The position numbers and the translations under genes were made by a program. From positions 3,162 to 29,994 of the IMG/VR virus record IMGVR_UViG_3300030107_000409: a stretch of DNA of 26,833 nucleotides. One strand, written 5' to 3'. Position 1 is the first letter of the stretch, and each line of letters starts with the position of its first letter. This DNA is from a virus. The notes beneath the pieces are model-generated. The model saw only the letters and a list, made by a program, of their open reading frames with translations, did no database searches and was not told where the DNA came from. Shown here in pieces: positions 2,331 to 7,940 of this stretch.

Positions 2331-4067
2331 CTAAACCCAGGTAGGATGGGACTTTCCGTCTTCTAGACCTCTAGCTTTGTCTCTTTGGTCTTTATTCATT
2401 GCAAATACTAAGTGATTAGCGGAAGATTGAGGATTATCAAGCATATCTTCCATCATAGAGTTCCAATCATCTAGTTTACGTTGAGCTATCTGTCTTTCAG
2501 CAGAAATAGAGAGGGATTCAGTAAAGTATTGGACACCTTGAGCTAAAGCATCGAGTCTATCATCATGTTTAACTGCACCTTTTTCCCGACACATACGGGA
2601 CATTTGATAGAAAAGCATATAGAGAAGACGAAGTTCTGGAGCTTCGTTTTTATTCGATGCATAGTCCCATTCCACAACAGACCTGTTAAGTACAAGGCGG
2701 TGCTGATTAAGAACAGGCTCAAGAGAATCAATAATGCGATCCTCTTTTCTAACGTTTGCACGAGTTTCTTCAATGTAAATAGCTTGTTTAGTAACTTGAA
2801 TATGTTTTTTAAATAGTTCTGCTACTATACCATCACCAAAGTTAGATTCAATTAGTAGTGTAGATACGTTATATTTTTCACAACCTTTAAGTATATCTAA
2901 GAGAGTGTTGTCTGAGTATCCGTCTCGATAAGCTCGCATCTCATGTAAATATAGGAATCCATTTTTCTGGGAAAGGTAGGCGGCAGTTGTTTCATCGGAG
3001 CCGCGTCCAGAGGGATCCACGCTGCAAATTGTTTCGGTGTAAGGACTCCATTCTCCTTGTAATTGCATTGGAGAGTAAAAGTAGTCACCTGGGAGTCCAA
3101 CGGTTGGGAGGTCTTTGATGACGTTTGAGGGGTCTGAGCACCAAACAATTGACTCAGGAGCTTCAGTGGGATTAACAGCAGTAACGATAAGGTCAGCCAT
3201 TTTAAGCGGGAATTTTTCAGCATCTGATAGGCTTGTATCTAGTTGGAACTGAAGCATGAAGTTAGACCTACCCATAGATGCTTCACGTTCTATTAGGTCA
3301 TCATTATCAAATCTATCATCTGTAGGATCCCATTCTAAGGCACCTGTGTCTAGGTCAGCTTGTATTTGAGGGGCTAATAATCCTTCGTATTGACTAAGCT
3401 TGGCTTTTCTGGGATATCTTGAGGGCCAAACAAAGGGACGATAGTTACGCTCAGCCAGCTTACGATAAACAGTAAAGGTAGTTTGAGGAGTCCCGAGATA
3501 CATAATCCTAGAATCACTTTTTGGCGTGAGGATAGATTCTGCTTCTGTACAAAGTTGAAGAAGTTTTTCACGCATCAACTCCGTCATAGAGTTTCCTGGG
3601 ACTTCTATATCGTCCAGAATCATCAGATCTGCACGAGATCCCGTTAACTGACCAGTAATACCAACACTCTTGACTGATGGAGCCTGGTGAGGACTGCAAT
3701 TTACGTCGAAGGAAATTCTTGACCATCTGCTGTCGTCTGCTTTTGGTCTGAGGTGGGCTAGCCATGGTGTTTCAATGATTAGTTTTTGTAAGAATATGGA
3801 CATGTTATCTGCACGTTCCTTAGAGGCAGATATGATCATTATCTTCCGTTCGGGGTCGTTAAATAATGTCCATAAGACAAAAGCACCAGTAATCCAACTC
3901 TTACCTACACCACGGAAAGCTTGTATCTGTAAACGTTTAGGTCCGTTTTGTAAGTAATCAGCGATTGCATATTGTGCTCTTGTAGGAGAAGGTAACTCAA
4001 GTTGAGTCCACAGGGCTTGTAGAAACAACTTGAAATCTTCTTGTAATGCGGTTAAAGGATCCGTCAT
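2331..4067 (-). CDS. terL: Large terminase subunit (T7 gp19-like, DNA maturase B)
   Basis: This 578-aa protein has both terminase halves. The N-terminal packaging ATPase shows a Walker A FRGVGKS (51-57) and a Walker B LMILDDIEV (148-156). The C-terminal RNase H-like nuclease shows SVDPSGRGSD (Asp351), LLIESNFGDG (Glu407) and HDDRLDAL (Asp502, Asp503, Asp506). It would pump DNA into the procapsid through the portal and cut concatemers at the genome ends, using the small terminase for recognition. The length is close to T7 gp19 (586 aa). Its ATG overlaps the stop of the 58-aa upstream gene as ATGA, so translation is probably coupled. The stop is followed by a structured noncoding stretch and then talC. 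Identification is secure. Confidence 0.97.
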   Translation of the reverse strand: MTDPLTALQEDFKLFLQALWTQLELPSPTRAQYAIADYLQNGPKRLQIQAFRGVGKSWITGAFVLWTLFNDPERKIMIISASKERADNMSIFLQKLIIETPWLAHLRPKADDSRWSRISFDVNCSPHQAPSVKSVGITGQLTGSRADLMILDDIEVPGNSMTELMREKLLQLCTEAESILTPKSDSRIMYLGTPQTTFTVYRKLAERNYRPFVWPSRYPRKAKLSQYEGLLAPQIQADLDTGALEWDPTDDRFDNDDLIEREASMGRSNFMLQFQLDTSLSDAEKFPLKMADLIVTAVNPTEAPESIVWCSDPSNVIKDLPTVGLPGDYFYSPMQLQGEWSPYTETICSVDPSGRGSDETTAAYLSQKNGFLYLHEMRAYRDGYSDNTLLDILKGCEKYNVSTLLIESNFGDGIVAELFKKHIQVTKQAIYIEETRANVRKEDRIIDSLEPVLNQHRLVLNRSVVEWDYASNKNEAPELRLLYMLFYQMSRMCREKGAVKHDDRLDALAQGVQYFTESLSISAERQIAQRKLDDWNSMMEDMLDNPQSSANHLVFAMNKDQRDKARGLEDGKSHPTWV

Positions 4068-5763: not shown

Positions 5764-6042
5764 TTAACTAATATGTGTAAGGATCATTTGTTCCCTATCG
5801 GGTATTGTTCCAAAAGTAGCTCGCATCCATCCGAGCCAATTACTACTCCCCTTCTCCTGATTACATCGCTGACAGGCTGGTACAACATTTGTTGCAATAT
5901 CTTCTCCACCTTTACATTTAGGTTTAACATGATCGATTGTAAGTTGATGTAATTCATAATTGTTTCCACAATAAACACATGTACAATTGAAGTGCTCTTT
6001 AACAGCTCTTCTCCAGAGCTTTTTAGCGTCAGGACTTGTCAT
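5764..6042 (-). CDS. HNH endonuclease
   Basis: The core carries a treble-clef HNH signature: CTCVYCG (zinc-type Cys22 and Cys25), LTIDHVKPKCKGGED with catalytic His38, TNVVPACQRCNQEKG with Asn52, and the second Cys pair 57/60. I chose the ATG at 6042 (92 aa, MTSPDAKKLWRRAV). A TTG at 6093 would add 17 unusual residues; it overlaps the preceding stop and has GGAGGAG about 12 bases upstream, so it remains possible. Enzymes of this family nick or cut double-stranded DNA with one metal ion. The gene sits between the small and large terminase genes, as packaging-linked HNH proteins do in many tailed phages, although T7 itself has none. It could instead be a free-standing homing nuclease. Confidence 0.88.
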   Translation of the reverse strand: MTSPDAKKLWRRAVKEHFNCTCVYCGNNYELHQLTIDHVKPKCKGGEDIATNVVPACQRCNQEKGSSNWLGWMRATFGTIPDREQMILTHIS

Positions 6043-6089
6043 GGTTATTAGGTTGTATAAATAATGGTTAGGGGTTGGTAGTAATGGGG

Positions 6090-6335
6090 TCAACGTCTTT
6101 GTGCTCCTCCTCTACCTCGGTTTGTTGTACGAGACTCTCGTTTAAAAGACCCATCAGATTGTTTAGATGCATCCATCTTAGAACCTTTAGGTATTTTTAA
6201 ACTAGCTCTAGCTGCAGAGTGTTTACGCTTATACGCTTTAGAATGAGCATATTTACCGCCAGGGCTATTATCTTTTACATGCTTAGCACGAGACTTAGCA
6301 TTTGTTCTATACGTCTCAGTTGACGATTTTGCCAT
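6090..6335 (-). CDS. Small very basic protein (81 aa)
   Basis: The ATG at 6333-6335 has a good AGAGGA site 4-5 bases upstream. It overlaps the end of the small terminase gene by 20 bases. The product is dominated by Lys, Arg, Ser and Ala (MAKSSTETYRTNAKSRAKHV; IPKGSKMDASKQSDGSFKRE; RTTNRGRGGAQRR) and is probably disordered. It has no hydrophobic segment. Its composition fits nucleic-acid binding. Its place between terS and the HNH/terL genes suggests a packaging or DNA-condensation accessory. No family with known function is recognised. Confidence 0.8.
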   Translation of the reverse strand: MAKSSTETYRTNAKSRAKHVKDNSPGGKYAHSKAYKRKHSAARASLKIPKGSKMDASKQSDGSFKRESRTTNRGRGGAQRR

Positions 6336-6561: not shown

Positions 6562-6728
6562 TAGTCTTTAGTTCCTGGGAATAAATTCTTTTTAATTAAT
6601 TCTACTGCCTTATCATCAATGGTGTTATCAGTGGATGCTGCATAAGCTTCAAGTAGTTGTATAACTAATTCCTTTACAGCAGATGAACTGAGGAATGCCA
6701 TTAATACGGGTTTGATAAGTACGATCAT
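6561..6728 (-). CDS. Hypothetical 55-aa protein between the secreted-protein gene and terS
   Basis: Hand translation gives 55 codons from the ATG at 6726-6728. The start overlaps the upstream stop as ATGA and the stop overlaps the terS start as TAATG, so the gene is locked into the operon. The N-terminus is hydrophobic (MIVLIKPVLMAFLSSSAV) followed by an amphipathic helix (KELVIQLLEAYAAS), an acidic turn (TDNTIDDKAVEL) and a basic end. It may associate with the membrane. Short, conserved-looking proteins of this type occur beside terS in cyanopodoviruses. Its function is unknown. Confidence 0.72.
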   Translation of the reverse strand: MIVLIKPVLMAFLSSSAVKELVIQLLEAYAASTDNTIDDKAVELIKKNLFPGTKD

Positions 6729-7633
6729 TTATTTAGGGGGTTAATTTTGTTCCACCATTTCTTTGGTGGTTGTGGTGGTAGAAGATCTTTTTTAGCTTGT
6801 TCTTCTGCCTTTTTCCAAGCTGCTATTGGTATAACATCACTACACATACTATATACACGGGATTCAGGAACAAGCATAAAGCCTTTCTGCTGTAATTCCG
6901 AGCACTTTAAGACTCTAACTAATTCATAGTCAAGTCTCATTTTTTCTTCTTGTCTAGCTGCCATACTACGACATCTGCGTAAACCTTCACGGTCTAAAGG
7001 TATCATAAAGTTAATTTGACCTCCCCAGTTTTCAGCCATGGTATAACTAGAAGGTCTCATACCTTCTTCATCTATATCCCAAGGCTTTGTATGATTTCCC
7101 ATATAAAATGGGGAGAATGTCATAGTAGCTCCATTACATGAAATGTTAGGTCCGTAGTGCTGTCTTGACGGTGCTCCATTGTTTTGGAATTGCACCGCTT
7201 GGTTGGTTACATTTCCCGTTGCAGCAGCTACTGGATTAGCTACATTATCTGTCTCAGCTCTAGCAGGAGCTATTGAGAGAAGACTGATAATGAGACCGTA
7301 GTAGAAGTAGTATCTATTTCTCTTTCTATTTCTGTTACCGATAACACCTGACTTGCAGCTCTTGTTACCACTTCTAACTCGAAGGGGTCTCCAGCTGTGT
7401 GTAAGGTGAATATTGAATCTGAATCGGCTATACCTCCTGAAGAGGCTGATGTATGGGTTATATTTTCCCCAGTCCATTTGTTTAATGCAGACCCATAGGT
7501 TGTTGTAGTTATTTCCTCTACAATCTCTTGGGTCGTTGTCGTTGTGCTGTTCATCGAACCCTGGGTGAAGTTTGGGGTTACTAACTCTGCTCTTGCTACC
7601 GTGGGTGATGCCAGTAGGAAGAGTAAAAACCAT
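6725..7633 (-). CDS. Secreted protein of unknown function; start uncertain, overlaps another gene in a second frame
   Basis: The only in-frame ATG before the conserved part is at 7633, giving 302 aa. It lies 8 bases inside the 123-aa gene and the two frames then overlap for over 360 bases. Residues 1-105 look like an unconstrained frame (rich in R, N and H). From residue 107 on there is a signal-peptide-like stretch YYFYYGLIISLLSIAPARA (cleavage after ARA, residue 126). A 176-aa mature part follows, containing PWDIDEEGM, WGGQINFMIPLD, RRCRSMAARQEEK, LKCSELQQKGFMLVPES and a proline- and lysine-rich tail (PPQPPKKWWNKINPLNK). Cysteines at three or four sites could form disulfides in the periplasm. 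No ATG, GTG or TTG is available near 7320, so the real start may be non-AUG (ATT at 7291) or reached by frameshifting. No function is recognised; the position suggests a link with lysis or the envelope. Confidence 0.6.
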   Translation of the reverse strand: MVFTLPTGITHGSKSRVSNPKLHPGFDEQHNDNDPRDCRGNNYNNLWVCIKQMDWGKYNPYISLFRRYSRFRFNIHLTHSWRPLRVRSGNKSCKSGVIGNRNRKRNRYYFYYGLIISLLSIAPARAETDNVANPVAAATGNVTNQAVQFQNNGAPSRQHYGPNISCNGATMTFSPFYMGNHTKPWDIDEEGMRPSSYTMAENWGGQINFMIPLDREGLRRCRSMAARQEEKMRLDYELVRVLKCSELQQKGFMLVPESRVYSMCSDVIPIAAWKKAEEQAKKDLLPPQPPKKWWNKINPLNK

Positions 7634-7641
7634 TTGTTCAT
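7270..7641 (-). CDS. Secreted 123-aa protein with signal peptide
   Basis: The start ATG overlaps the preceding stop (ATGA). The first 19 residues (MNKWFLLFLLASPTVARAE) form a classic signal peptide with an ARA cleavage site and no lipobox cysteine. The mature part is rich in Thr and Ser (NFTQGSMNSTTTTTQEIVEE; EIDTTSTTVSLSVFSQ) and predicted beta-rich. The ending LSVFSQ is one I associate with cyanophage proteins of unknown function. It should be exported to the host periplasm. It lies between the small membrane proteins and terS, where T7 places its spanins, but it has neither the anchor nor the lipoprotein signal expected of Rz or Rz1. Its entire frame is covered by the 302-codon frame in another phase. 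Confidence 0.72.
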   Translation of the reverse strand: MNKWFLLFLLASPTVARAELVTPNFTQGSMNSTTTTTQEIVEEITTTTYGSALNKWTGENITHTSASSGGIADSDSIFTLHTAGDPFELEVVTRAASQVLSVTEIEREIDTTSTTVSLSVFSQ

Positions 7642-7940
7642 TCTTCCTTTTTCTTAGCCATTGGACAATTTACTGTACCTTTATCTTTACTATTACCAGT
7701 AGACAGGCCAAAAGTGGCTAATGCTCCTGTAAAGACACTGGCAACAAAGGTTATATCAGAATTACCTGCTTTTTTAATCATAGGTAATTCCACGTAGTTC
7801 ATTGTAATGATAAATCCAGACCAAACCACTACGCCAAGTCTAACAAATGTACCAAGAATCTGGATTTGGTGTTCTTGATCCTCTGCTGCATCTTTCAGCT
7901 TTCCGAGGAGTCCTTTTTTTTCTTCCTGTTTTCCTTCCAT
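7638..7940 (-). CDS. Two-span membrane protein (100 aa), holin candidate
   Basis: The N-terminus is charged and helical (KKGLLGKLKDAAEDQEHQ). Hydrophobic segments follow at 28-48 (ILGTFVRLGVVVWSGFIITM) and 63-80 (ITFVASVFTGALATFGLS), and the tail is lysine-rich (MAKKKEE). This size and topology fit a small class II-like holin, and T7 keeps holin 17.5 just after the tail fibre. AAGG lies about 12 bases before the ATG. The gene overlaps the one upstream by 46 bases and the one downstream by 4. The sequence resembles proteins conserved across cyanophages without a proven function, so the holin role is inferred from topology and position. Confidence 0.72.
   Translation of the reverse strand: MEGKQEEKKGLLGKLKDAAEDQEHQIQILGTFVRLGVVVWSGFIITMNYVELPMIKKAGNSDITFVASVFTGALATFGLSTGNSKDKGTVNCPMAKKKEE

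Follow-up and report, generated by a model that had tools for sequence, protein, structure and literature searches.

Lineage-dependent start codons of a secreted-protein gene that appears to enclose its upstream neighbour in marine cyanophages

The stretch of DNA analysed here, hereafter the window, comprises 26,833 nucleotides (positions 3,162 to 29,994) of the IMG/VR record IMGVR_UViG_3300030107_000409 and comes from a T7-like cyanopodovirus, kin of the Prochlorococcus phages NATL1A-7, P-SSP10, NATL2A-133, and 9515-10a. Gene 1, gene 2, and their upstream neighbour all lie on the minus strand. Gene 1 (7270..7641) runs from an ATG at 7641 to a stop at 7270 and encodes a secreted protein of 123 aa, and the gene 2 open reading frame (6725..7633) runs from an ATG at 7633 to a stop at 6725, over 302 codons in the -1 frame of gene 1. 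Both frames are where a preliminary description of this DNA had placed them, with ATGs 8 bases apart, and gene 1 lies inside the gene 2 frame except for its own first 8 bases, a nesting of 364 nt. The proposed gene 2 start (7631..7633) is read across the codons AAA and TGG (Lys3-Trp4 of gene 1), 8 nt past gene 1's ATG. A second in-frame ATG (7475..7477) falls on the Trp codon of gene 1's NxWTG motif; it appears optional here and is used by relatives with stops upstream. From 7633 the gene 2 frame encodes an N-terminal extension of 107 aa (7313..7633) that is basic and rich in Arg, Ser, and Asn, a signal-peptide core, YYFYYGLIISLLSIAPARA (7256..7312), that lies mostly over gene 1's C-terminal codons (TTSTTVSLSVFSQ and the stop), and a mature secreted domain of 176 aa (6728..7255). 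The predicted cleavage site falls between ARA and E, after residue 126. As had been noted before, no in-frame ATG, GTG, or TTG lies near the signal-peptide stretch (7312-7256); the nearest upstream ATG is the one at 7477, followed by that at 7633. Gene 1 carries a signal peptide of the ordinary type, MNKWFLLFLLASPTVARA, followed by E. All statements on signal peptides rest on pattern and hydropathy. Upstream, the TGA of a gene for a DUF6450 protein (7638..7940; PF20048, E=5.7e-33) overlaps gene 1's ATG in the sequence ATGA. This DUF6450 protein (7638-7940) has two hydrophobic stretches and is a plausible holin candidate.

Both proteins belong to phage families. Gene 1 matches PHROG 650 (phrog_650, E=9.8e-32, profile match), and gene 2 belongs to the cyanophage 'gp165' family, PHROG 848/1755, with E=2.6e-60 and 4.3e-56 over the mature domain. 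PHROGs splits the gene 2 protein (6725-7255) over families 848 and 1755, both with strong matches, and these families may belong together. Four cysteines of the mature domain (A7), C40, C95, C118, and C138, do not vary among 69 podovirus and myovirus sequences. Searches of Pfam, NCBIfam, and PDB sequences with genes 1 and 2 returned nothing convincing. The AF2 model of gene 1 (mean pLDDT 82.7) consists of long beta strands and that of gene 2 (mean pLDDT 75.9) of beta hairpins and a long helix, both with moderate confidence. Against the PDB, the gene 1 fold gave weak matches (E>=0.08, prob <=0.72) that resemble only the long beta hairpins of pore stems, and the gene 2 fold also matched weakly (E>=0.6); because the best PDB fold matches are weak, we claim no function for either gene. 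The top BFVD match for gene 2 is P-SSP10 Gp165, and in the viral structure library only its cyanophage and uncultured-phage relatives scored convincingly.

The gene pair sits behind the DUF6450 gene and ahead of the small terminase gene. In T7, the holin and spanin genes occupy a roughly corresponding genome position, and because the pair lies so close to that place, a role in the envelope or in lysis is a reasonable guess. Beside the small terminase region the window also holds an HNH endonuclease-like gene (5764-6093), annotated so in related phages. Cyanomyoviruses have a third secreted-protein gene before gene 1 (L015:642-1148, L016:693-1154, L017:690-1136, L019:629-1081); its product distantly resembles the gene 1 protein (hhalign probability 95.6, E=1.1e-8), and a tandem duplication of gene 1 is a possible origin. 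Existing annotations of the pair are inconsistent (loci L001, L002, L003, L004, L005, and L013): gene 1 is missing from those of P-SSP10, 9515-10a, and NATL1A-7, and gene 2 is annotated without its signal peptide in P-SSP7, NATL2A-133, and S-RIP1.

With the window counted, we gathered 388 homologous loci; annotated phage records supplied 22, and five IMG/VR scans the others. The mature part of gene 2 is present in 377 phage records, from cyanopodoviruses and cyanomyoviruses alike, and gene 1 lies directly upstream of it in all 363 of the 363 loci with enough upstream sequence. Relative to gene 1, gene 2 is in the -1 frame at 283 of these 363 loci and in the +1 frame at 80, and the gene 1 start could be placed in 337. 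A first set was made up of 124 dereplicated homologs of the -1-frame type. Because the sequences are interrelated, raw p-values overstate the evidence, and the argument is carried by lineage-specific boundaries, frame controls, and start-codon contrasts.

In the window, exactly 26 codons of gene 1 begin with AA, AG, or GA, and none of them follows a codon ending in T, as the preliminary description had estimated; T stands at 22 of the 96 other junctions. Synonymous shuffling of this gene predicts 3.4 stops for the -1 frame, which stays open in 0.7% of shuffles, bearing out the earlier expectation of several chance stops, and in the +1 frame the same gene has 15 stops against 14.75 expected. 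Likewise, most nested-type gene 1s have no stop in the -1 frame, where shuffling predicts about 2-6 per gene, and have as many stops as expected in the +1 frame. We found an ATG in the -1 frame at most 5 codons from the gene 1 start in 103 of the 124 first-set homologs. From this early ATG the frame is open to the gene 2 signal peptide in 90 of the 103, compared with 0 of the 21 homologs that lack it, which strongly supports the earlier suggestion that selection keeps the second frame open. In the wider sample, dereplicated on the tree, 74 loci combine the ATG with an open frame and 83 have neither; none is open without the ATG, and 14 have the ATG with a closed frame. These 14 relatives fit a recent loss, and they weaken a strict link between the ATG and the open frame.

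Among open loci, a T-ending codon precedes an AA, AG, or GA codon in 3 of 2075 cases, compared with 26% before other codons. This depletion is absent from the mature part of gene 2 (39.7% vs 36.1%) and from the upstream part of gene 1 in non-open loci (29% vs 27%), and is mild in the neighbouring upstream gene (30% vs 38%). Over segments A-C of the extension, the 92 nested relatives, a class defined partly by openness, have 0 stops against about 240 expected. Since start classes were partly defined from openness, an absence of stops downstream is to that extent true by construction; the contrasts between relatives with and without an early ATG, and between Lys-3 and Lys-2 (below), depend less on class definition. 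Overlapping stretches are common in phages, and codon shuffling leaves any single gene 1 open with a probability of 0 to 10%. We give next to no credence to a meaningless chance frame, because the depletion is confined to lineages and segments with a start upstream, is absent in control genes and frames (the mild effect in the upstream neighbour aside), and is accompanied by conservation of a start codon. The second frame is thus open beyond chance across diverged homologs, as befits a nested pair; this comparison confirms that its openness is not accidental and shows it to be kept open by selection.

The conservation of the start is clearest at 7633. In 101 of 101 nested relatives an A precedes the Trp-4 codon, and the early ATG lies 8 nt from gene 1's ATG in 99 of them and 11 nt in the other 2. 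Of 88 open relatives, 87 use AAA for Lys codon 3, whereas the adjacent Lys codon 2 is split between 34 AAA and 37 AAG. Where Lys3 has given way to Thr, the codon is ACA, and where the Trp is shifted by one codon, the codon before it still ends in A. The site Trp-70 behaves differently in the same genes: in relatives with the 8-nt start its preceding base is A in 60, G in 18, T in 8, and C in 9, and the difference in A between Trp-4 (101/101) and Trp-70 (60/95) gives a Fisher p=1.9e-13 with kinship ignored. Trp-70 makes an ATG in 19 of the 19 relatives that depend on it, that is, where it is the first start. Moreover, in phages that start at Trp-38 the preceding base is G, A, or T in 68 of 68 cases and CCC never occurs, although CCC, at 49%, is the commonest of the other Pro codons, and Trp-23 is preceded by A in 47 cases and G in 1. 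The Trp-70, Trp-38, and Trp-23 classes are partly defined by the start itself, and Lys-3 against Lys-2 is the cleanest comparison. Codon choice in the relatives shows the ATG at 7633, 8 nt downstream of gene 1's ATG, to be under selection. A point against the proposed initiation there is that the gene 1 start often has no clear Shine-Dalgarno motif, which is present in 40 of 99 nested relatives. In the open-licence literature we found neither ribosome profiling or proteomics of this locus nor a report of the overlap between the two genes.

The same data bear on the idea that gene 2 starts later, either from the ATG at 7477 or from some non-AUG codon close to the signal peptide, with the upper open frame a by-product of gene 1's codon use. 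The ATG at 7477 does exist, relatives with a closed upper frame use that position, and segment A (codon 6 to -70) taken alone is expected to hold only about 0.75 stops per sequence. Across the 92 nested relatives, however, segment A contains 0 stops against 69 expected, in a class defined by openness; it has 23 against 85 expected in all relatives with an early ATG and 51 against 39 in those without. In addition, nested relatives do not preserve the NTG at Trp-70 as ATG, with CTG in 9 of 95, whereas the Trp-4 ATG is invariant. A non-AUG start near the signal peptide is not needed, given that an ATG, GTG, or TTG is kept below the last stop in 124 of 124 first-set homologs. We regard a later start in the window as improbable.

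Aligning the homologous loci, as the preliminary description had proposed for locating the second gene's start, revealed that its position differs by lineage. Among about 337 relatives, the start of gene 2 falls either immediately past gene 1 or 19-23, 38, 56-58, 65-70, or 119 codons before gene 1's end. More finely, the classes are -19 (+1 frame, P-SCSP clade), -22/-23, -38, -56/-58, -65 to -70, and about -119, the last being a start at gene 1's own beginning. Starts in the -1 frame come mostly from Trp codons because TGG after any base gives NTG in that frame. Stops are absent or rare downstream of each lineage's start, and upstream of it they are near expectation (208 vs 189 in segments A+B of class s38, 278 vs 256 in segments A-C of class s22, and 33 vs 23 in segment A of class s70). 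By these boundaries, relatives without the early ATG are shown to start further down, mostly at an NTG that another gene 1 Trp codon supplies. The start arrangement that had been called not yet understood is in this way largely resolved: the start is an ATG made from a Trp codon of gene 1, at a position that depends on the lineage. The preliminary description had also held that related phages with second-frame stops upstream of the signal-like segment would make the long overlap a chance open frame. Such stops do occur in P-SSP7, P-SSP2, S-SBP1, and others, but they do not refute the overlap, because in these phages the early ATG is missing and a start lies closer, from which the frame stays open.

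Two further arrangements were shown by the same alignments, with starts again assigned from the pattern of stops and ATGs. In a few phages, the gene 2 ATG lies at or just behind gene 1's stop: L191 and L204 have an ATGA overlap, and in L197, L198, and L200 the ATG follows 1 nt behind the stop. In a P-SCSP-like clade (L018, L020, L309-L388), the gene 2 signal peptide lies in the +1 frame of gene 1's C-terminus and gene 2 begins at a separate ATG, 53-56 nt short of gene 1's end. The frame control is reversed in this clade: over the signal peptide the +1 frame is depleted of stops (10 against 126 expected) and the -1 frame is not (197 against 107 expected). A tree built from 197 mature domains, unrooted and hence silent on direction, implies about 32 switches of start class; well-supported branches force at least 4-7 switches in each of four classes (nested, s70, s38, and s22). 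Those branches yield 4-6 independent pairs, all concordant or neutral, for which a sign test is not significant.

These arrangements also speak to programmed -1 ribosomal frameshifting, by which gene 2 would have no start of its own and would be made as a fusion to gene 1. The prevailing -1 relation (283 of 363 loci) and the many podoviruses without an ATG close to the gene 2 signal peptide are what such a mechanism would predict. Yet the relation is not fixed, since gene 2 is read in the +1 frame at 80 of 363 loci, almost always from an ATG of its own, and five loci place its ATG on gene 1's stop or behind it. In the -1 frame, stops lie about 30 (P-SSP2-like) and about 42 (P-SSP7-like) codons before gene 1's end, and by eye the aligned overlaps contain no common slippery motif or heptamer. 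Frameshifting, moreover, would work without an open frame ahead of the shift site and without the Trp-4 ATG, yet both are conserved. On the +1 clade, the separated forms, the lack of a common slippery motif in the overlaps inspected, and the conserved +8 ATG, we reject frameshifting as very improbable.

A truly nested pair should also show reduced synonymous change in the overlap, a test called for by the preliminary description. The reduction is present and is complete against swaps that make stops: among the pyrimidine sites compared, 0 of 1270 show one, whereas the control rate is 0.29. The remaining pyrimidine swaps go almost unhindered (0.264 vs 0.292), and purine (A/G-ending) synonymous swaps are moderately reduced (0.196 vs 0.297). 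In its extent, the answer to that test is divided. Over gene 1's last 22 codons, where the signal peptide lies, the reduction is strong, with synonymous differences of 0.24 against 0.45, or 54% of the gene 2 mature-part control; elsewhere it is mild, at 0.38 vs 0.45 in nested segments A-B and 0.38-0.43, or 85-95% of the control, across segments A-C. To judge from these rates, the extension is kept free of stops by selection with its sequence loosely constrained and its amino acids mildly so, and the signal peptide is tightly constrained. Within the overlap, strong dual-coding constraint is confined to the stretch where the signal peptide covers gene 1's C-terminal codons.

What happens to the extension after translation can be read in two ways. 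Gene 2 has one hydrophobic segment, which ends in an AxA-like site in 322 of 337 relatives under a loose pattern, cleavage there being a prediction; the roughly 107-residue extension and the overprinted signal peptide are probably cleaved off a secreted four-cysteine domain. An n-region of about 107 residues is unusual for a signal peptide and counts against this. The other reading accepts the start at 7633 and takes the extension as a functional cytoplasmic domain of an uncleaved type II inner-membrane protein. It would account for the strongly basic character of the extension (median net charge +13 in nested relatives) and for the reduction in A/G-ending swaps, a mild constraint at the amino-acid level. 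Against it stand the AxA-like site, the tolerance of the extension for most synonymous variation, and the variation of extension length with start position, up to its absence in some relatives. We consider an uncleaved membrane protein unlikely and cleavage of the leader the better account.

Nested genes are familiar from phiX174, with E within D, and from lambda, with Rz1 within Rz, where the extra protein is the product of the inner gene. The cyanophage pair is like them in having one gene inside another in a different frame with both under selection. It differs in that the newer coding is the N-terminal leader of the outer gene, and the conserved domain lies outside the overlap. The likeness to Rz/Rz1, which had been remarked on before together with a lack of spanin signatures, extends to two exported proteins from adjacent genes that occur separated, overlapped, or embedded, in the +1 or -1 frame, a layout that matches that of spanin genes. 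The signatures are lacking in the wider sample as well. A loose lipobox pattern matched 0 of 337 gene-1 proteins and 6 of 337 gene-2 proteins, and in a Kyte-Doolittle scan the signal peptide was the sole hydrophobic segment of each protein. A two-component spanin was rejected because it would need an outer-membrane lipoprotein with a lipobox, absent from all 337 gene-1 proteins, and a unimolecular spanin, which combines an N-terminal lipobox with a C-terminal transmembrane domain, because gene 1 has no lipobox and neither protein has a hydrophobic segment past the signal peptide. The inner-membrane partner of a two-component spanin has an N-terminal transmembrane anchor; set beside it, gene 2 has its one hydrophobic segment, which ends in the AxA-like site described above. 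Judged by these sequence features, neither protein is a spanin by definition. Unlike Rz/Rz1, gene 1 encodes no transmembrane helix, neither protein carries a lipobox, and the nesting places the upstream gene within a downstream gene lengthened at its 5' end. In a survey of spanins (Kongari et al. 2018, PMC6139136), no spanin family combines embedded with overlapped or separated members, whereas all three architectures occur here within one homologous family. A parallel for the route is the 5' elongation described by Fonseca et al. 2013 (PMC3887535), in which a downstream gene loses its old start and takes up a new one inside the upstream gene; it was rarer than 3' elongation in their simulation, and here it is repeated in one pair, up to complete nesting (364 nt).

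Our preferred explanation, which as a whole we put at about 80%, takes the 302-codon frame for a genuine gene, its start having shifted into the gene in front, in the window almost to that gene's beginning. Ribosomes would begin translation at both ATGs from a single ribosome-binding region common to the two, and the extension of about 107 residues would act solely as an over-long n-region. Signal peptidase would then remove everything upstream of the E that follows ARA, extension and signal peptide together, so that the mature gene 2 protein would be the same secreted four-cysteine domain wherever translation begins. With the leader cleaved off, the position of the start would be nearly neutral provided that no stop interrupts the frame, which would allow the start to move repeatedly. 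That the start walked upstream through successive Trp codons because the sequence before the cleavage site is discarded, until the gene swallowed its neighbour, seems to us a reasonably likely account of how the nested form arose.

Embedded overlapping genes are well known in viruses, and the transition from separate to embedded genes is usually reconstructed without intermediates. The gene pair described here is common in marine cyanophages, and its separated, partly overlapped (in both frames), and embedded forms coexist in one family, with a start codon in each lineage that is identifiable from selection. The family thereby documents a route between separate and embedded genes, on an unrooted tree that does not establish the direction. 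Inconsistent annotation in the reference cyanophage genomes examined leaves two conserved exported proteins poorly visible. If the proposed account is true, the sequence ahead of a cleavable signal peptide is left free, which would be a simple reason for the movement of the start.
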